A DNA stretch of 50,745 bases from Candidatus Riesia pediculischaeffi (GTDB taxonomy: Bacteria > Pseudomonadota > Gammaproteobacteria > Enterobacterales > Enterobacteriaceae), in assembly GCF_002073895.1 (NCBI RefSeq), contig NZ_CP012839.1, forward strand, positions 161,044 to 211,788. Reading direction: 5' to 3'. The translations under genes and the position numbers were made by a program. A model generated the notes under the pieces. It did no database searches and was not told where the DNA came from. It saw nothing but the letters and a program-made list of their open reading frames with translations. Positions 337 to 25,109 of the stretch are shown in pieces; positions within the stretch are counted from its first letter, which is position 1, and each line of letters starts with the position of its first letter.

Positions 337-3300
337 ATGGGTTTAGTTCATACAGAAAAAAAACGTATCAGAAAAAATTTCGGTAAAAGACCACAAGTTC
401 TAGGTGTACCTTATCTACTATCTATTCAGATAGATTCTTTCTCTAAATTTATCAACAATTGCGGAAAAAAGAGCGGTTTAGAATCCGCCTTCCATTCTAT
501 ATTTCCCATCAGAAGTTATAATGGAAACGCTGAACTGAGATACATCGAATATCGTCTGGAAGAACCAACATTCGATGTGAGAGAATGTAGAACAAGGAGT
601 GCAACCTACTCTTCCTCCTTGAAGGTTAAATTAAGACTAGTGGTATACGAGAAGGAGTCTTCTAAAAAAATACAGTACGTAAGAGATCAAGAAGTATACA
701 TGGGAGAGATTCCGATCATGACTGAAAATGGAACTTTTATCGTCAATGGAACTGAACGGGTTGTCGTTTCTCAACTGCACCGTAGTCCAGGTGTTTTCTT
801 CGATAGCGATAAAGGAAAAACACATTCTTCAGGAAAAATTCTATATAACGCTAGGATCATACCGTATCGTGGATCATGGTTAGACTTCGAATTTGATATT
901 AAGGATCATATATTCGTAAGAATCGATAGGAGAAGAAAGTTACCGGCGACTGTCATATTACGTGCAATAGGTTATGACAATGAAGAGATGTTAAACCTTT
1001 TTTTTGAAAAGACCACCTTCAGGCAAGATCAAGAGGGGATCTTCTTCATGGATTTGGTTCCCAAAAGATTACGAGGTGAAACAGCTTCCTTCGACATCGT
1101 AAGTGGTGGAAAAACCTACGTCAAGAAAGGGATCAGAATAACCGCATCTCACGTTGAAAGTTTAGAGAAAGATAATGTTCGAGAAATTGAAGTTCCATCG
1201 GATTATCTAATCGGTAGGATAGTTGATAAAAGTTACTTTGATAAAAGTGACGGAAAATTGATCTGTTCAGCGAACTCTAAGATATCGAAAGAAATTTTAG
1301 AAGACTTGAAGAGATCTCGAAACAGATCTATTCGAACACTCTTCATAAATGATCTAGATCGAGGATCCTATATCTCCAACACGTTGAGAATCGATAATAC
1401 GAAAGATCGAATAGATGCCTTGATAGAAATCTACAGAATGATGAGGCCAGGAGAACCTCCTACAAAGGAATCAGCGGAAAGTTTGTTCAACAGTCTCTTC
1501 TTTTCTGAAGATCGATACGATCTATCTCCGGTTGGAAGGATGAAGTTCGACCTTTCCCTTTCCAGAGAAAGAAACACAGAATCTAACGTGTTGAACAATC
1601 AAGATATCATTGACGTGATTAAAAAACTAATTGATATTAGGGATGGAAGAGGAGAGGTGGATGATATCGATCATTTAGGGAACAGAAGGATACGTTCGAT
1701 TGGAGAGATGGCGGAGAATCAGTTCAGGTTAGGACTGATCAGGGTTGAAAGAGCCGTAAAGGAGAGATTATCATTGGGGGATCTAGACTCTTTATCTCCC
1801 CAAGACATGATCAATGCGAAACCGATCTCTGCTGCTGTAAAAGAATTTTTTGGATCCAGTCAACTATCTCAATTCATGGATCAGAACAATCCCTTATCTG
1901 AAATAACTCACAAACGTCGAATTTCAGCTTTGGGTCCGGGGGGGTTAACTAGAGAGAGAGCAGGATTCGAAGTACGGGATGTTCATCCAACACACTATGG
2001 TAGAATGTGTCCGATAGAAACTCCGGAAGGGCCGAACATAGGGTTGATTAATTCACTTTCTGTCTACGCGAGAACTAATCAATATGGGTTTTTAGAAACT
2101 CCATATCGGATAGTGAGGAATGGGGTAGTTAGCAACGATATCCGGTATCTTTCCGCAATTGAGGAAGGAAATCATATCATCGCACAGGCGAACACCATGT
2201 TGAACGAAGATGGATCATTTCGGACAGAACTGGTGACCTGCAGAAACAAAGGAGAATCTAACCTATTTAACAAAACACAGGTGGAGTATATGGATGTTTC
2301 TACGCAGCAAATCGTATCTGTCGGAGCATCTTTGATACCGTTTCTTGAACATGATGATGCAAACCGTGCATTGATGGGCGCTAACATGCAAAGACAGGCG
2401 GTACCTACCTTACGAACGGAGAAGCCGTTGGTAGGAACGGGCATGGAAAGTGTAGTAGCAAAAGATTCTGGAGTAACAGTGATCGCCAAAAGATCAGGAA
2501 CGGTGCAATATGTGGATTCTTCCAAGATAGTGATCAAAACGGAGAAGGAAGGTCATTCCTTGCAGGATTTCGGAATCGATATGTACGATCTGACGAAATA
2601 TTCTAGATCGAACCAAAATACATGTATCAATCAAGTACCTTGCGTTTCCATGGGAGATAAAGTCAGATCTGGAGAGGTGTTAGCAGACGGTCCTTCCACC
2701 GATTTAGGAGAGCTGGCTTTAGGACAAAACATGCGGGTCGCATTCATGCCGTGGAATGGATACAACTTCGAAGATTCGATTCTAATATCGGAGAGGGTAG
2801 TTCAAGAGGATCGATTCACAACCATCCATATACAGGAACTATCTTGTATCTCAAGGGATACCAAACTAGGACCGGAAGAGATCACAGCGGATATTCCAAA
2901 TGTTGGAGCATCATCTTTATCCAAGTTAGATGAATCTGGTATCGTATATATCGGAGCAGAGGTGATTGGGGGTGAGATACTGGTTGGAAAAGTGACACCA
3001 AAAGGAGAGACTCAGCTTACCCCTGAAGAAAAGTTGTTAAGGGCTATTTTCGGAGAAAAAGCATCCGACGTAAAAGATTCCTCTTTAAGAGTTCCCAACG
3101 GAACTTCAGGTACCGTGATAGACGTTCAAATATTCACAAGAGATGGAGTCAAAAAAGACAAGAGAACTCTGGAGATCGAAGAAATTCGATTAAAAGAGGC
3201 GGAAAAAGATATTCTTGAAGAACTTACTATCCTCGAATCTTGCCTATTTTACGATGTTCGTTCTTTTCTCACAAAAAATGGAATAGATCGTGTAACAGTT

Positions 3301-4365
3301 GACAATCTGGTCGGGGAAAGGTTGTTTCAAATAAAGTTAGCAGATAATTCTCTAAACGATGTGTTGGATCGATTTCAAAAAAAACACCATGAGTTGAAAA
3401 AACAGTTTTCAGAAAAATTATGTAAAAGAAGACATCAGATCGCTCAGGGAGATGACTTATCTCCTGGCGTTCTGAAAGTTGTTAAAGTACATTTGGCCGT
3501 AAAGAGACAGGTACAACCGGGGGATAAGATGGCCGGACGTCACGGAAACAAGGGTGTGATCTCCAAGATCAGCCCTATAGAAGATATGCCGTATGATCAA
3601 AATGGAAATCCTGTAGATATAGTTTTGAACCCATTGGGTGTTCCATCTAGGATGAATATCGGGCAAATCTTGGAAACACATCTAGGGATGGCTGCCCGAG
3701 GGATTGGAAACAAGATCAATCAGATGATACGGAGTAAAGAGAAAGTCAAAAATATCAAGGAGTTTATTCAACAAGCTTACGACATTGGTGTTGGAAATCA
3801 TCAAAGGATAGATTTGGATGAACTCTCTGACGAAGAGACTATGGACTTAGCACATCGTCTGAAAGACGGTTTACCGATATCTACTCCAGTATTCGATGGA
3901 GCAAAAGAACATGAAATTAAAGAAATGTTGAAACTAGCAGATCTTCCACAATCGGGACAGATTACATTGTTCGATGGATGCACCGGAGAACGGTTTGAGA
4001 GGTTGGTCACCGTAGGATATATGTACATGTTGAAGTTGAACCATCTTGTAGATGACAAAATGCATGCTCGTTCGACAGGTTCTTACAGTTTGGTTACACA
4101 GCAGCCATTGGGAGGAAAAGCACAATTCGGAGGACAGAGATTCGGAGAAATGGAAGTTTGGGCTTTAGAAGCTTATGGTGCCTCCCACGCGTTACAGGAG
4201 ATGTTAACCGTAAAATCAGATGATGTCAATGGAAGGACAAAGATGTATAAGAACATCGTCAACGGAGAACATAAGATGGAACCTGGTATGCCAGATTCTT
4301 TTAATGTCTTGTTAAAAGAAATCAGATCTTTAGGAATTAATATAGAGTTAGAGAAGAAACGATAG
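337..4365 (+). CDS. rpoB: DNA-directed RNA polymerase beta subunit
   Basis: This encodes the beta subunit of RNA polymerase, which forms one side of the active-site cleft. The protein is 1342 residues, the same length as the E. coli protein, and aligns from [20 protein letters not shown] at the N-terminus to [12 protein letters not shown] at the C-terminus. The rifampicin-binding segment ([20 protein letters not shown], then [10 protein letters not shown]) has the wild-type residues, so sensitivity to rifamycins is predicted. The active-site segments [12 protein letters not shown] and the C-terminal [20 protein letters not shown] are intact. The ATG at 337 has AAGGA about eight bases upstream. 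Sequence drift is concentrated in the lineage-specific surface region near residues 970-1040. It is followed after 75 bases by rpoC and is presumably co-transcribed with it. Confidence 0.99.
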
Positions 4366-4440: not shown

Positions 4441-5229
4441 ATGAAAGAGCTACTGCATTTTTTAAAATCATACGATCGAAATGAAGAATTCGATACGATC
4501 AAGATATCTCTAGCTTCTCCCGACACGATACGGTCTTGGTCGTTTGGAGAAGTAAAAAAACCAGAGACCATCAACTATCGAACCTTTAAACCTGAAAGGG
4601 ATGGCCTATTTTGTTCCAGAATATTTGGTCCGGTAAAAGATTACGAATGCCTATGCGGAAAATATAAGAGATTGAAACATCGAGGTGTGGTATGTGAAAA
4701 ATGTGGAGTAGAGGTGACTCAATCCAAAGTGCGTAGAGAAAGGATGGGACATATAGAGCTAGCTTCACCGATCGCTCACATATGGTTTTTAAAATCTCTT
4801 CCATCAAGAATCGGTTTATTGCTCGATATTCCTTTAAGGGATATCGAAAGGGTTCTATATTTCGAATCTTACGTAGTTACGCAGGAAGGAACCACGGATC
4901 TTAAGGTTGGACAGATATTGACAGAAGAACAGCACTTAAAATCCTTAGAAGAGTTCGGAGATGAATTTTCAGCAGGAATGGGTGCAGAATCTATACAAGA
5001 TCTGTTGAAAAATCTTCATCTAGAGTCGACATGTAAAGATTTAAGAATCGAGCTCAATCGATCTGGATCTGAAACAAAAAGAAAAAAAATTTCTAAAAGA
5101 ATCAAGCTTATTGAATCATTTATCCATTCTGGAAACAAGCCAGAATGGATGATATTGAACGCACTTCCCGTGTTACCACCGGATTTACGTCCTTTAGTTC
5201 CTTTAGAAGGAGGAAGGTTCGCTACCTAA
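4441..5229 (+). CDS. rpoC: RNA polymerase beta' subunit, N-terminal segment (frame interrupted)
   Basis: The first 262 residues correspond to the clamp region of beta'. They carry the N-terminal zinc ribbon ([20 protein letters not shown]) and run through [20 protein letters not shown] to EGGRFAT, where a TAA at 5227-5229 ends the frame. E. coli continues from here as SDLNDLYRR. The continuation is present here in the -1 frame, starting with the codon at 5223 (YLNDLYRR), so the gene is interrupted exactly in the loop known as the lid. Relative to E. coli, seven bases are missing between GCTAC and CTAAAC. No homopolymer lies at the junction. The gene cannot be dispensable, so the interruption must be a split but working subunit, a recoding site or a sequence error. 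Confidence 0.93.
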
Positions 5230-8200
5230 ACGATCTGTACAGGAGGGTGATAAATCGAAACAACAGATTGAAGAGATTGCTCGACTTATCTGCTCCAGAA
5301 ATCATCATCAGAAATGAAAAAAGGATGTTGCAGGAATCCGTGGATGCTCTGTTGGACAATGGTAGGAGAGGAAGGGCGATATCTGGATCTAATAAGAGAC
5401 CTTTGAAATCTCTAGCGGATATGATCAAAGGAAAACAAGGAAGATTTCGACAGAATCTTCTCGGAAAGCGGGTAGATTACTCTGGAAGATCAGTGATAAC
5501 CGTAGGACCTTATCTAAAGTTGCATCAATGTGGTCTTCCAAAAAGAATGGCGTTAGAACTATTTAAGCCGTTCATATATGGAAAGTTAGAAAGAAGAGGG
5601 TTGGCGAGCACTATCAAAGCTGCGAAAAAGATGGTAGAAAGAGAGGAATCGATCGTTTGGGACGTCTTGGATGAGGTTATTAAAAGACATCCAGTGATGC
5701 TAAACAGAGCTCCTACGTTACATCGGTTGGGTATCCAAGCTTTTGAACCCATATTGATCGAAGGAAAAGCGATTCAATTACATCCTTTGGTATGCGCTGC
5801 TTATAACGCTGATTTCGATGGTGATCAGATGGCTGTCCATGTCCCGTTGACATATGAGGCTCAGTTAGAAGCCCGTTCTCTGATGATGTCGACTAAAAAC
5901 ATCTTGTCACCTGCGAGTGGAGATCCCATCATCGTTCCTTCTCAAGATGTCGTATTAGGATTGTATTACATGACCAGAGATTGTATCAACGCTAAAGGAG
6001 AGGGGATGATATTATCCAGCCCAAAAGAAGCGGAGAAAGCATATAGAATTCGCGTCGCATCTTTAAATGCTAAAGTTAAGGTACGAATAGAAGAATCCAT
6101 GATGGATTCGAAGATGAGCATCCGTCATTCAAAGAAGATTGTCGATACCACTATCGGAAGAGCGATATTTTGGATGATTGTTCCAAAAGGTTTATCCTAC
6201 GATTTAGTTAACCGACCCCTTGATAAGAAGGCTATATCTTCAATGTTGAACACATGTTACAGGATCCTAGGTCTTGAAAAAACCGTTGAATTCGCAGATC
6301 AGATCATGTACACAGGATTTCACTACGCCGCTCGATCCGGAGCATCCGTAGGAATAGATGATATGGAGATACCAAAAAAGAAAGCTGAAATCATATCAGA
6401 AGCAGAGAAGGAAGTGGCAGAAATTCAAGAGCAGTTCCAGTCTGGTCTAGTCACCGTTGGTGAACGATACAATAAGGTTATCGACATATGGTCGGTAGCG
6501 AATGAACGGGTAGCCACCGCAATGATGGAAAATCTATCTACAGAAACAGTGATCAACAAACACCTTGAAGAAGAACAACAGACCTCTTTCAACAGTATAT
6601 TCATGATGGCAGACTCTGGTGCAAGAGGATCCGCAGCGCAAATACGGCAGCTCGCAGGTATGAGAGGATTGATGGCCAAACCAGATGGATCAATCATTGA
6701 AACGCCCATCACAGCGAACTTCAGGGAGGGACTGAACGTATTACAGTATTTTATATCAACGCATGGAGCTAGAAAAGGATTAGCTGATACGGCTCTAAAA
6801 ACAGCAAATTCCGGATATTTGACGAGAAGGTTGGTGGATGTTGCACAAGATCTGGTGATCACTGAAAGAGATTGTAACACTGAAGAAGGAGTTGTGATCA
6901 CTTCCATGATTGATGGTGGAGGGACAAAAGAATTCTTAAGAGATAAAATATTAGGTCGAGTAACAGCAGAAGATGTTCGATTATCTTCCGAGGATGAATC
7001 GATGTTCATACCAAGAAACACGTTATTGAATGAAAAACTGTGTGAACAGATAGAGATCTACTCGATAGATTCGATAAAAGTTCGATCTGTCATCTGTTGT
7101 GAGACGAATTTCGGAGTCTGTTCCTATTGTTATGGAAGAGATCTAGCAAGAGGAAAACTGATCGATATAGGAGAAGCTGTCGGGGTGATCGCAGCACAAT
7201 CTATCGGAGAACCAGGAACTCAGCTAACTATGCGGACTTTTCACATAGGAGGAGCAGCTTCAAGAGTTGCTTCCGAATCCAACGTCAGAGTTCGTAACTC
7301 CGGTACGATATCCTTAGAAAACACGAAGTTCATCCGAGATCGCGTCGATTGTCTCGTAGTGATATCTCGTCATTCAGAACTGAGGGTGATGGATAGTTTT
7401 GGAAAGATTATAGAGAATCATAAATTACCGTACGGTGCACATCTTAACAAGGATGAAGGACAGGAAGTAAAAAAGGGAGAAATTGTCGCCACCTGGGATC
7501 CTCATGCTATTCCGATAATTTCAGAAGTTTCTGGGATCGTATGTTTTCAAGATATGATAGAAGGACAATCTGTCGTACGTCAGACAGACGAATTAACAGG
7601 AATTTCCTCAACGATCGTACTGGAAACTTCTGAACGATCTTCTTCAGCGAAGGATCTAAGACCGACATTGAAGATCATGGATGAAAAACGTCAGAACGTC
7701 GTTCATTCTTCAGGTGTTCCTGCACAATATTTCTTACCAGGAAGATCAATAGTACAACTTGGTGATGGATCTTCGGTAAGTGCTGGGATGATATTGGCAA
7801 AAATTCCACAAGAATCTACTGTGACGAAGGATATCACCGGTGGTCTACCGAGGGTGGCTGATTTATTCGAAGCTAGACAACCTAAAGAACCTGCCATACT
7901 TGCCGAAATGAGCGGACGTATCTCCTTCGGAAGAGAAACAAAGGGTAAACGTAGATTGATCATAACATCATCCGACGGACAAGAAACTCATGAAGAGATG
8001 ATTCCTAAATGGAGACAGTTGAACGTCTTCGAGGGAGATGTCGTATCTATAGGAGAAATAATCTCGGATGGACCAGAATCTCCTCACGATATTCTACGAC
8101 TCAGAGGAGCTCATGAAGTTTCCAGATATATCACACAAGAAGTACAAGAAGTATACCGTCTGCAAGGAGTGAAGATCAACGATAAACATATCGAAGTCAT

Positions 8201-8582
8201 AGTCCGACAAATGCTCAGAAAAGTTACCGTCATTCATTCTGGAGATTCAGATTTTTTAGAAGGGGAACAGATAGAATACACCAAGATACAGGAGAAGAAT
8301 AAACAACTATCTTCGTCCGGAAAAGCTCCGATCGTTTATCGAAGAGATCTTCTAGGAATTACGAAAGCTTCTTTGACAACAGAATCTTTCGTATCCGCCG
8401 CTTCTTTTCAAGAAACTACCAGAGTCCTGACAGAAGCAGCAATCTCTGGAAGGAGAGATGATCTAAGAGGGTTAAAAGAGAACGTGATAGTCGGAAGGTT
8501 GATACCAGCGGGTACAGGATACCCATATCATAACAGAAAAAAGAAGGAGCATAAGTCCAGTTTAGATTCTTTCAAAGATTAA
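5145..8582 (+). CDS. rpoC: RNA polymerase beta' subunit, C-terminal segment (in -1 frame relative to the N-terminal segment)
   Basis: This frame holds the rest of beta'. Residues from about 27 onward ([18 protein letters not shown]) align with E. coli through to the end; the first 26 residues after the ATG at 5145 are an out-of-frame reading of the upstream segment and are probably not native. The catalytic NADFDGDQM motif places the three magnesium-binding aspartates at residues 223, 225 and 227. The second zinc site is visible (C in RDCNTEEG and [14 protein letters not shown]), as is the bridge/trigger region [20 protein letters not shown]. Joined at 5223, both segments give about 1380 residues, against 1407 in E. 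coli. No other interruption is seen over 3.3 kb, which argues for a functional gene. A weak GGAAAC stretch precedes the ATG at 5145. The 3' end faces pssA with a 36-base gap and no obvious terminator. Confidence 0.93.
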
Positions 8583-8618: not shown

Positions 8619-9983
8619 TCATATCACCATTTTGATCAATCGATCCATCTTTGTCCTATGTATTCGATCTATTCTTCTTTGAACTTTTTCGGGATAACTG
8701 CAGATATTTTCAATCTGTTCGTAATGTAAGATAGACCTTGTATGTAGCTGTATGAATCGCATCTCCTTTTCGATCTGGTTCGAGTTTCTTTCCATCGGAT
8801 CGTGGATCAAGATAGCGTTTTCCAGATCGAAATACCACGATCTACGGTTAAAATTGTTTCCTGTGATCAACTGCCAGTTCGAATCAATCCATATACCCTT
8901 GAGATGATAGCTGTGATTATCATATTTCCAATGTCGTATGATCAACTGTCGGTTGTTGACAAATCTCTGTAGGATATTTACGAAATCTCTCAAATTAATC
9001 TCGTAGAGATAAGGTAGGATGTTAATCCATCTGAAAGATCTTTTTTTTGGATCAACGTAAAAATCATTTGTCGTTTTATCTCCCACAATAATTTCTATCC
9101 TCTTTCCAAAAGTTAACAATTCTCGGATCATTTTGATCATTTCTACGGGAAGGTTAAAATATGGAGTACAAATCGTCATATATCTTTTTGTACTACCCAT
9201 CAGGTTCAATATAGTTCGATTCAAATAGTTTCTCCGTCCCATCCCGATGATTGGACATACAGAGAGTTCTTCGTTGGAAGCGATATTCTTAAACTGATAA
9301 TGACACTTTTTTAATCTTTTTCGAAACTGATTGGTATACCTTTTTCTAAACTTAATAAATTTATGATCGATATCATATCTTTGAACAGCTGGAGATCTTA
9401 AGATCTCTTTATCAATGAAATTCTTCATTATTTTAGCGAGATCTGCATTATGAAACATATGATATCGATCGTATCGATGTCTTTTCTCCTTATGAAAATA
9501 TAAATTGCTAATACTCGCTCCGCTGTAAATAACGCTATCATCAATGATTATCCCTTTCAGATGAAAGGTACCGAATATCTCTATCATACCAACTGGTATA
9601 CCGAATATACGTATCTCATGATTAGAGAAATTAAGAGAAAGTAAACGATACCAGTCCTTATTAGTCATCAACTGATTATTTGATTCTCCTATCCTATTTC
9701 TTTTAGCACGGTACCAATCTACCATGATCTTGATATCCAAATCTGGTTCTCTTTTTTTAGAAAGAGAAAGAGCTTCGAAAACTTCTTTACCTGAGTCATC
9801 TTTTTCAAAATAAAGAACTGGAATATAAATATGTTTTTTCGCAACCTTTATTTTTTCGAGGATGATCTTCCTAAAACTTCTTGCTCGATACAAAGTTATC
9901 ATATCAGATGGTATTTGAGGTAACTTCTTTAAGTTTGTTAAAGATTTATGATAATTCAAATTATTTTTAATAGAAGTTAACAT
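8619..9983 (-). CDS. pssA: CDP-diacylglycerol-serine O-phosphatidyltransferase (phosphatidylserine synthase)
   Basis: This enzyme makes phosphatidylserine from CDP-diacylglycerol and serine, the committed step to phosphatidylethanolamine, at the inner face of the membrane. The 454-residue protein (E. coli 451) belongs to the phospholipase D superfamily and has two HKD-type motifs: FHLKGIIIDDSVIYSGAS near residue 140 and HLKGIWIDSNWQLITGNN near residue 360. Long stretches match E. coli PssA, including CTPYFNLP, IEIIVGDKT and LPYLYEINLRDF, and the end IHRTKMDRLIKMVI. This distinguishes it from cardiolipin synthase, which shares the fold but not these segments. In E. coli pssA is far from rpoC, so the rpoC/pssA junction is a rearrangement. 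The partner decarboxylase gene psd is not in the window. Confidence 0.95.
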   Translation of the reverse strand: MLTSIKNNLNYHKSLTNLKKLPQIPSDMITLYRARSFRKIILEKIKVAKKHIYIPVLYFEKDDSGKEVFEALSLSKKREPDLDIKIMVDWYRAKRNRIGESNNQLMTNKDWYRLLSLNFSNHEIRIFGIPVGMIEIFGTFHLKGIIIDDSVIYSGASISNLYFHKEKRHRYDRYHMFHNADLAKIMKNFIDKEILRSPAVQRYDIDHKFIKFRKRYTNQFRKRLKKCHYQFKNIASNEELSVCPIIGMGRRNYLNRTILNLMGSTKRYMTICTPYFNLPVEMIKMIRELLTFGKRIEIIVGDKTTNDFYVDPKKRSFRWINILPYLYEINLRDFVNILQRFVNNRQLIIRHWKYDNHSYHLKGIWIDSNWQLITGNNFNRRSWYFDLENAILIHDPMERNSNQIEKEMRFIQLHTRSILHYEQIENICSYPEKVQRRIDRIHRTKMDRLIKMVI

Positions 9984-22913: not shown

Positions 22914-25109
22914 ATGATTACTATTATTCAAGTAGTTTTTTATAAAGAAGTCACTTTTCCACTCGAATATATTTTACCAAACGGTATGTTTCTACCGAAG
23001 AAAGGTTGTCGAGTGTTAGTTCCAATCAAGAAAAGAAAGGTGATAGGTATTGTATGGTCTTGTAAAAAAAAAAATACGGTACGCTATAATAAATTGAAAT
23101 CAATCTACAAAATATTAGATAATGAACCTTTATTTTCGAAAGATATGTGGAAATTGTTGTGTTTGGCCTCTCAATATTATCATCATCCCATAGGATCAGT
23201 TTTATTTAACGCTTTACCTAACATATTAAGAAGAGAGAAATCGTTTCCGGTAAAAATATTCTCTTATTGGAAGATTACTGATAGCGGTATGATCTTTGAA
23301 TCAAATCGTTTAAAAAGATACCCGCAACAAAAAAGAGCTCTAACAATACTTCAATCTAAAATTGCGATAAGTTCAGATGAAGTAAAAAAACTTTCTATCA
23401 ATATCTATTCTCTAAAATCTTTAAAAAAAAAAAAATTAGTTCAACTTTCTAAAAGTTCAAATAATGAAGTATTTTGGAGGAATAATATTGAGGTGTCTGA
23501 AAAAAAACCGAAGTTAAATTTAGAACAGTCTGAAATCGTCAAAAAAATTACTTCAGATAAAATGCTTGTTCCTTGGTTACTAGTAGGAATCACAGGATCC
23601 GGAAAAACGGAAGTATATCTTAGAATAATAGAAAATATATTAATTTCCGGAAAACAAACCCTCATGTTAGTTCCAGAAATTAGCTTAACTCCTCAAACCA
23701 CAAGAAGATTTTACGAAAGATTCAATGTTCCGATCGAAGTACTGCATTCTTCTTTAAACAATCGTGAAAAATTCTTTATTTGGGAACGATCTAAAAACGG
23801 GGAAAATGCAATTATCATCGGAACAAGATCGGCATTATTTACCAACTTTAAAAATCTTGGTCTTATAATAGTAGATGAAGAACATGACAGTTCATACAAG
23901 CAACAACATGGATGGTGCTATCACGCAAGAAATATGGCAATCTGGAGAGCTAAACAAGAAAACATTCCCATTATTATGGGTACAGCAACACCATCTTTAG
24001 AAAGCTTATTTAACGTAGAAATAGGGAAATATAGAAGAATAGATTTAACGAGAAGACCTGAAGGTTATTTACCATCACATCATATTTTTGATCTTAAGGG
24101 AAGACCATCGACATGCAATTTATCTAGATCATTAATTCACAGTATCAAAAATCAAGTTTCTCAAAACAATCAAGTAATGTTATTCTTGAACAGAAGAGGA
24201 TATTCTCCAGTACTTATTTGTCACAAATGTGGATTGGTCTCGGAATGTCTAAGATGTGAACACTATTATACATTGCATAAAAATCAGAAAAAGATAGAGT
24301 GTCATTATTGTAACCAGAGCTTTCCAATTCCGATACAATGTAGCAAATGTAGTTCTACTGACCTCATTTCATTAGGATTCGGTACTGAAAAATTAGAAGA
24401 AAGGATACGTCAAATCTTTCCAAACATACCTGTTGTACGCATTGATAAAGATACGGTAAAAAACACATATCTTCTTAAGGAGAAATTATCTTTGATAAAT
24501 ACCAAGGAAGCAAAAATTCTAATCGGTACACAAATGTTAGCTAAAGGTCATCATTTTTCAAACGTCACTTTGGTAGCTCTGATAGATATTGACGGTGTAT
24601 TTTTTTCCAATGATTATAGAGCTTCAGAAAAATTCGCTCAACTTTTCACACAAGTATCTGGAAGAGCTGGGAGATCTCTAAAAAAAGGAAAAGTGATATT
24701 ACAGACACACCATCCGAATCATCCAGTTCTATCATCTCTTATTAAGAAAGGATACATTGAATTTGCGTTAGAAATTCTAAAAGAGAGAAAAGAATCTCTT
24801 TTACCACCATATAGCAGCCATATAATAATTCGTTCAAGAGATAGAAATGGATCGAACTCCTTAAATTTCTTGACGGAAGTTAGAAAAATCATTCTGAAAC
24901 ACATGGACAATACGAATTTATATCTCAGTAATCCTATACCTTCCACGATACCGAAAAAAAAAGGTTTTTTTCGATGGTTTCTTCTCATTCAACATAGCTC
25001 TAAAATTTTTTTAAATATTATGTTATCTAAAATGATCAAAAAAATTCAAAATATTCCAGAGGGGAAAAACGTTCGTTGGAATATAGATGTAGATCCTATT
25101 GAACACTGA
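22914..25109 (+). CDS. priA: primosomal replication protein N' (helicase PriA)
   Basis: PriA recognises stalled or D-loop forks and reloads the replicative helicase. The 731-residue protein (E. coli 732) has the N-terminal DNA-binding domain (YYHHPIGSVLFNALP), Walker A GITGSGKTE near residue 229, the DEEH box in VDEEHDSSYKQQHGW, GTATPSLESL, the double zinc site (CHKCGLVSECLRC, CHYCNQ, CSKC), and motifs GTQMLAKGHHF and QVSGRAGR. The end, NIDVDPIEH, matches E. coli LDVDPIEG. A 13-A run at 23423-23435 lies in frame. A possible promoter (AGGACA at 22875, TATGAT at 22899) would leave almost no leader before the ATG; this is uncertain. Keeping priA although recBCD is missing from its usual neighbourhood here is notable. 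Confidence 0.96.
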   Translation: MITIIQVVFYKEVTFPLEYILPNGMFLPKKGCRVLVPIKKRKVIGIVWSCKKKNTVRYNKLKSIYKILDNEPLFSKDMWKLLCLASQYYHHPIGSVLFNALPNILRREKSFPVKIFSYWKITDSGMIFESNRLKRYPQQKRALTILQSKIAISSDEVKKLSINIYSLKSLKKKKLVQLSKSSNNEVFWRNNIEVSEKKPKLNLEQSEIVKKITSDKMLVPWLLVGITGSGKTEVYLRIIENILISGKQTLMLVPEISLTPQTTRRFYERFNVPIEVLHSSLNNREKFFIWERSKNGENAIIIGTRSALFTNFKNLGLIIVDEEHDSSYKQQHGWCYHARNMAIWRAKQENIPIIMGTATPSLESLFNVEIGKYRRIDLTRRPEGYLPSHHIFDLKGRPSTCNLSRSLIHSIKNQVSQNNQVMLFLNRRGYSPVLICHKCGLVSECLRCEHYYTLHKNQKKIECHYCNQSFPIPIQCSKCSSTDLISLGFGTEKLEERIRQIFPNIPVVRIDKDTVKNTYLLKEKLSLINTKEAKILIGTQMLAKGHHFSNVTLVALIDIDGVFFSNDYRASEKFAQLFTQVSGRAGRSLKKGKVILQTHHPNHPVLSSLIKKGYIEFALEILKERKESLLPPYSSHIIIRSRDRNGSNSLNFLTEVRKIILKHMDNTNLYLSNPIPSTIPKKKGFFRWFLLIQHSSKIFLNIMLSKMIKKIQNIPEGKNVRWNIDVDPIEH

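Follow-up and report, generated by a model that had tools for sequence, protein, structure and literature searches.

In archaea, the largest subunit of RNA polymerase consists of two polypeptides, A' and A'', with the cut near its C-terminal part. In cyanobacteria and plastids, it is encoded by two reading frames, rpoC1 and rpoC2, which are either adjoining or separate; PMC10802570 describes the cyanobacterial split as fixed across a large lineage. Frame breaks in rpoB and rpoC have also been recorded elsewhere, each as an exception within its species, and many of them are treated as suspected errors in PMC6403173. In the lid of the beta' subunit, V253, L255, D256 and R259 are described as contacting the hybrid, with D256 bridging to the beta flap and R259 guiding the template strand (PMC5386594). 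E. coli RNA polymerase has been purified with GG in place of beta' P251-S263, and is reported to form open complexes in which the lifetime of the open bubble is reduced (PMC8783055); likewise, a lid-deleted enzyme is reported to form elongation complexes (PMC5100998).

The rpoC locus of Candidatus Riesia pediculischaeffi shares with the rpoC1/rpoC2 arrangement the presence of the largest subunit in two reading frames. The cut is placed differently, since the cyanobacterial gamma chains (624-625 aa) run more than 350 residues past the Riesia break, which lies after residue 262; the distinction from rpoC1/rpoC2 drawn in an initial sequence-only reading of this DNA is thus borne out. The split is moreover limited here to one symbiont species, in contrast to the large cyanobacterial lineage. 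The archaeal A'/A'' pair is comparable in its two polypeptides per subunit, and differs in that its cut is not at the lid. The E. coli GG variant is altered at the same loop as the Riesia locus, and still forms open complexes; that variant is, however, an engineered and continuous chain, whereas Riesia keeps V253-R259 and is cut after T262. The suspected-error frameshifts listed in PMC6403173 also combine a broken frame with whole genes in relatives, but the change is of seven bases here and is apparently found in two strains. If beta' is indeed made in two pieces, this would be a new split point within the known class of split largest subunits, and no new class.

Layout of the break in rpoC

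The window, i.e., the whole stretch of 50,745 nucleotides that was analysed, comes from a genome made up of two contigs (566,667 and 5,197 bases; 571,864 bases in total), and its GC content ranges from 28% to 40% across ten 5-kb steps. PTSK, the R. pediculischaeffi of the chimpanzee louse Pediculus schaeffi, is described in PMC12175528 with 566,667 bp and 31.7% GC. The sister species R. pediculicola (G001, contig of 574,389 bases), from which it is separated by about 5.4 million years according to PMC4232544, was used as the reference for DNA and protein comparisons. A plasmid search with the small contig (5,197 bases) gave a single record, the plasmid of R. pediculicola USDA, with 72% over 29%. 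Two sigma-70 family genes (G000:C2:9071-9283 and 566000-566209), with open frames of 514 and 290 aa, are found near opposite ends of the 566,667-bp contig.

The rpoC frame is broken in this sequence, and one continuous reading frame for beta' is absent from the ORFs, the profile pieces and the DNA alignment (Table 1). As had been read from the letters alone, the frame opened by ATG 4441 ends with EGGRFAT and a stop (TAA 5227-5229) after 262 codons. The conserved continuation had been placed one frame back, which holds, and from 5223, which does not: the Tyr codon at 5223 has no counterpart in relatives, and the continuation resumes at a Leu codon at 5226 and stays open up to the stop at 8580-8582. 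S263 and D264 of beta' are encoded by neither frame. Residues 1-262 of the N part align to residues 1-262 of solved beta' chains, including E. coli chain 10ma_J, and the alignment with 8g1s_J is ungapped. The N part ends after residue 262, which agrees with the location in the beta' lid proposed earlier.

Both parts match Rpb1 domains, with domain 1 divided between them. PF04997 occurs at one locus in the genome, in two pieces (profile 2-232 and 234-312), and a separate domain search matched profile positions 2-231 in the N part. The Rpb1 domains follow each other in order, with the start of domain 1 in the N part and the end of domain 1 and domains 2, 3, 4 and 5 in the C part, whose ORF translation contains the catalytic NADFDGD motif. 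Searches of the genome found no second rpoC locus. The N and C parts are 92% (241/262) and 85% (953/1116) identical, respectively, to R. pediculicola RpoC, so that "perfectly conserved", as both halves had been called, was too strong. On the minus strand, an ORF of 454 aa (8619-9983) adjoins rpoC, and its R. pediculicola counterpart is 69% identical.

Table 1. Positions, within the window, of rpoC, its break and neighbouring features.
Feature	Positions	Strand	Remarks
rpoB	337..4365	+	Whole, 1342 aa, single ORF; upstream neighbour of rpoC; 85% identical to R. pediculicola RpoB (P0242)
rpoC 5' part	4441..5229	+	ORF; beta' 1-262 and stop TAA
Both frames open	5115..5226	+	Last upstream stop of the -1 frame is TGA 5112-5114
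Break	5223..5229	+	Seven bases fewer than R. pediculicola; exact gap placement ambiguous in the alignment
rpoC 3' part, -1 frame	5226..8582	+	beta' 265 to end; ORF 5145-8582
AGGAGG followed by GTG (5247)	5241..5249	+	Possible start of the second piece, with poor spacing; first codon of P0001 (other strain)
TTG	5268..5270	+	Annotated start of P0002 (other strain); no Shine-Dalgarno match

Relatives, a second strain and the question of error

Between 3734 and 10066, the window is 76.7% identical to R. pediculicola in a DNA alignment with 12 gaps. Five of these lie within rpoC; four have lengths divisible by three, and the remaining one, of seven bases after 5223, corresponds to the seven missing bases deduced earlier by comparison with E. 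coli. The non-triplet gaps found elsewhere in the alignment (4429, 9983 and 10014) all lie outside ORFs. Among related symbionts, RpoC is intact across the site in R. pediculicola (P0003) and in Riesia sp. GBBU (P0089). More broadly, the GGRFATSDLNDLYRR segment is unbroken in 112 of 114 scanned loci, the remaining two (L117 and L118) spanning other genes; four of the 112 are one R. pediculicola gene, the collections may overlap, and seven loci had been left out before the scan (three being the window's own gene and four lacking rpoC). A survey of 392 genomes of the family, read by the best-E column for PF04997 and thus covering that domain rather than the rest of rpoC, retrieved it in 390 of them. 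The best E value is at most 5.1e-81 in all but two, namely the window's genome (2e-50) and G045, which is 49% complete (1.5e-52). In the same family, a 4.6-Mb single-contig genome (G402:C1:4238897-4239880) has a whole PF04997, although its open frame for rpoC extends over just 383 aa.

Two near-identical RpoC fragments of 1111 aa (P0001) and 1104 aa (P0002), encoded on the same 233,299-bp contig, came up among the best 120 of 7,998 scored proteins. Both begin just downstream of the break and, besides the initiator, show six residue differences from the window, which indicates that they belong to another strain. No Riesia N-part fragment was present among the best 120 of 7,999 scored proteins; as a guess, that of the second strain could belong to the 90% cluster of P0003, which has three members and to which the N part of the window is 92% identical.

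A contig edge was considered as the cause of the truncation of P0001 and P0002, and was set aside by comparing the contig span with the rRNA positions. The 16S genes end here at 233,278 and 537,364 (304,086 apart, both confirmed as SSU rRNA), which puts about 233 kb between the chromosome end and the first rRNA operon and about 304 kb between operons. The PTSU draft is described with 5 contigs and an N50 of 303,941 (PMC4232544), and the contig of P0001 is very probably one of these. Since 233,299 bp fits the first of these two distances, the rpoC gene of the second strain, which lies at 165.5-169.6 kb here, appears to be far from either contig end. The truncated proteins of this strain thus suggest that it carries the same lesion.

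These observations bear on the question of whether the gene is really whole and the break an assembly or consensus error, perhaps passed between strains by reference-guided assembly. RNA polymerase is essential and rpoC is whole in the sister species. In addition, 25 of 2,307 proteobacterial genomes are listed in PMC6403173 with RpoB/RpoB' annotation issues, mostly frameshifts and often suspected errors. A loss of seven bases is, however, unlike a homopolymer miscount, and RpoC is also truncated just past the site in the second strain despite its different residues. For PTSU, the likely source of these truncated proteins, PMC4232544 describes a de novo assembly built on Illumina data (reads SRX390495) of 120-150x depth. 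The window itself looks clean: among 43 counterpart R. pediculicola ORFs of at least 150 aa, 35 match the window and 8 lie beyond its two ends, and the 35 matched comprise 33 that run in one frame without a stop, one with a single stop, and rpoC as the sole case of a frame change. In the reverse comparison, all 36 window ORFs match R. pediculicola (31 clean, four with stops, one of which is antisense to rpoC, and one, priA, with a frame change in R. pediculicola). Separately, the 18 matches listed by three further genome-wide family searches are all free of internal stops. An error had been one of the options left open from the sequence; the second strain and the otherwise clean window weaken it, and it is now judged unlikely. 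As for priA, it is a single 731-aa ORF in the window (22914-25109), whereas its R. pediculicola counterpart (G001) is split by a single-base difference into ORFs of 180 and 529 aa, which is either a broken replication-restart gene of that species or an error.

A mixture has also to be weighed, in which an unbroken gene in some genome copies or lice would supply beta' while the assemblies show the commoner, broken allele. The PTSU library was prepared from four pooled lice, as indicated in PMC4232544, and assembly would flatten mixed alleles. Such a mixture would nevertheless require the broken allele to be the majority in both strains, and the present assembly contains no second rpoC copy, so that this explanation is considered improbable. 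The break is not mentioned in the literature surveyed on Riesia and rpoC, which did not include the PTSK description paper, and the words "rpoC" and "frameshift" are both absent from the text of PMC4232544. The sequence does carry the rpoC break and, with fairly high confidence, so does the organism.

Frame restoration and gene decay as rival readings

Given a real break, translation could restore the frame by a -1 shift or hop, yielding a single beta' with a lid shortened by a residue or two. Such a shift would have to take place between the -1-frame stop at 5112 and TAA 5227, where the open frames overlap over about 110 bases. This arrangement is reminiscent of dnaX-type programmed -1 frameshift genes, which also combine two overlapping frames with a Shine-Dalgarno-like sequence upstream: a strong AAGGAGG element precedes the last sense codons by about 10 bases, a distance that stimulates -1 shifts in dnaX. 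Unlike in these genes, no in-frame slippery heptamer (XXXYYYZ) is found in the overlap (5115-5227), the five such heptamers of the N part being all upstream of the -1-frame stop at 5112. Most of AAGGAGG is also present in the unbroken R. pediculicola gene, and it is therefore no new element. Correction could otherwise occur in the transcript, where the polymerase may slip on a homopolymer, a mechanism reported from other insect symbionts. A run of eight A is present at 5084-5091, but it lies upstream of the -1-frame stop at 5112; within the usable overlap, no base occurs more than three times in a row, which makes this route very improbable. Recoding, which had been put forward from the sequence, thus draws no support from slippery sites or homopolymers; a translational shift is rather improbable, and less likely than a beta' made in two pieces.

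It could also be argued that rpoC is simply dead in this lineage, since gene loss is typical of reduced symbiont genomes. This is barely credible in view of the state of the locus, where rpoB is whole beside the broken rpoC, which shows no second frame-breaking gap and no excess of changes at conserved sites. The latter point was analysed at columns invariant in six outgroups, by counting the changes unique to the window and those unique to R. pediculicola. The respective counts are 1 and 3 in the N part (202 columns), 15 and 23 in the C part (770 columns), and 27 and 27 in RpoB (982 columns), with no significant difference in any of the three; the C part of the other strain gives 16 versus 23. 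The dN/dS ratios relative to R. pediculicola, for which dS is saturated, are 0.021 for the N part, 0.055 for the C part and 0.026 for RpoB. Neither half of rpoC seems to decay faster than RpoB, although a very recent break would escape such tests. Two of the six differences between the strains fall at sites identical in six compared relatives, namely E600 in the window and R694 in the other strain (P0001 numbering). These two differences, together with the highest dN/dS being that of the C part, count against a beta' functioning in two pieces. A search of the genome for the phage-type polymerase family PF00940 gave no match, but its control matched nowhere either.

A proposed two-piece beta' and its implications

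The favoured reading is that R. pediculischaeffi has fixed a small deletion, located at the C-terminal base of the beta' lid, and that beta' would be made as two polypeptides: beta'N, comprising residues 1-262, and beta'C, starting from about V272 or another nearby start. Both would assemble with beta and alpha into a working RNA polymerase, and the symbiont would tolerate the deletion owing to this two-polypeptide beta'. Among the three options raised initially, namely two pieces, recoding or a wrong sequence, the first is thus preferred by elimination, its production and assembly being inferred. A real deletion combined with two polypeptides assembling into a working polymerase is given about an even chance, and a two-piece beta' is, at that same overall level, the likeliest consequence of the break.

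As regards the origin of the deletion, the proposal of a loss between short repeats looks plausible, since a direct repeat of 4 bases, with a period of 7 bases, is present at this site in the R. pediculicola rpoC; slippage between such copies would remove seven bases. A direct repeat of at least 4 bases is found at the site in 10 of the 112 loci, four of the ten being the same R. pediculicola gene.

The start of beta'C is the weak point of this scheme. As a first guess, it could arise by reinitiation after the TAA at GTG 5247, 17 bases further on, in which case L265-R271 would be omitted. The genome has the anti-Shine-Dalgarno end of 16S rRNA, and AGGAGG would pair strongly with it, but with zero spacing to the GTG. 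The Shine-Dalgarno match of ATG 5145 is weak and TTG 5268 has none, but weakness of this kind is also seen at several further starts in the window. The lack of a good start signal for beta'C counts against its production as a separate chain. The AGG-AGG-GTG codons correspond to AGG-AGA-GTA in R. pediculicola, a change that may be due to chance: across rpoB and rpoC, GTG accounts for 38 of 188 Val codons and AGG for 37 of 197 Arg codons.

The position of the break, after T262, leaves the lid residues V253-R259 in the N part, and beta'N would hence retain V253, L255, D256 and R259. Since enzymes with a replaced or deleted lid form open or elongation complexes, the chain is interrupted at a site with a known tolerance of alteration in vitro. 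The cut is thus at one of the more tolerable places of beta', and the separate chains might assemble there.

To our knowledge, split largest subunits are confined to a few deep lineages, and the tolerance of a new split has thus not yet been seen in action. If the two-piece beta' is true, an essential gene would have survived a frame break by becoming two proteins, and the whole gene of R. pediculicola, about 5.4 million years away, would provide a before-and-after pair. With such a pair, it could be tested if chain continuity is required in the lid, and what degree of damage to its core transcription enzyme a host-dependent symbiont can sustain.
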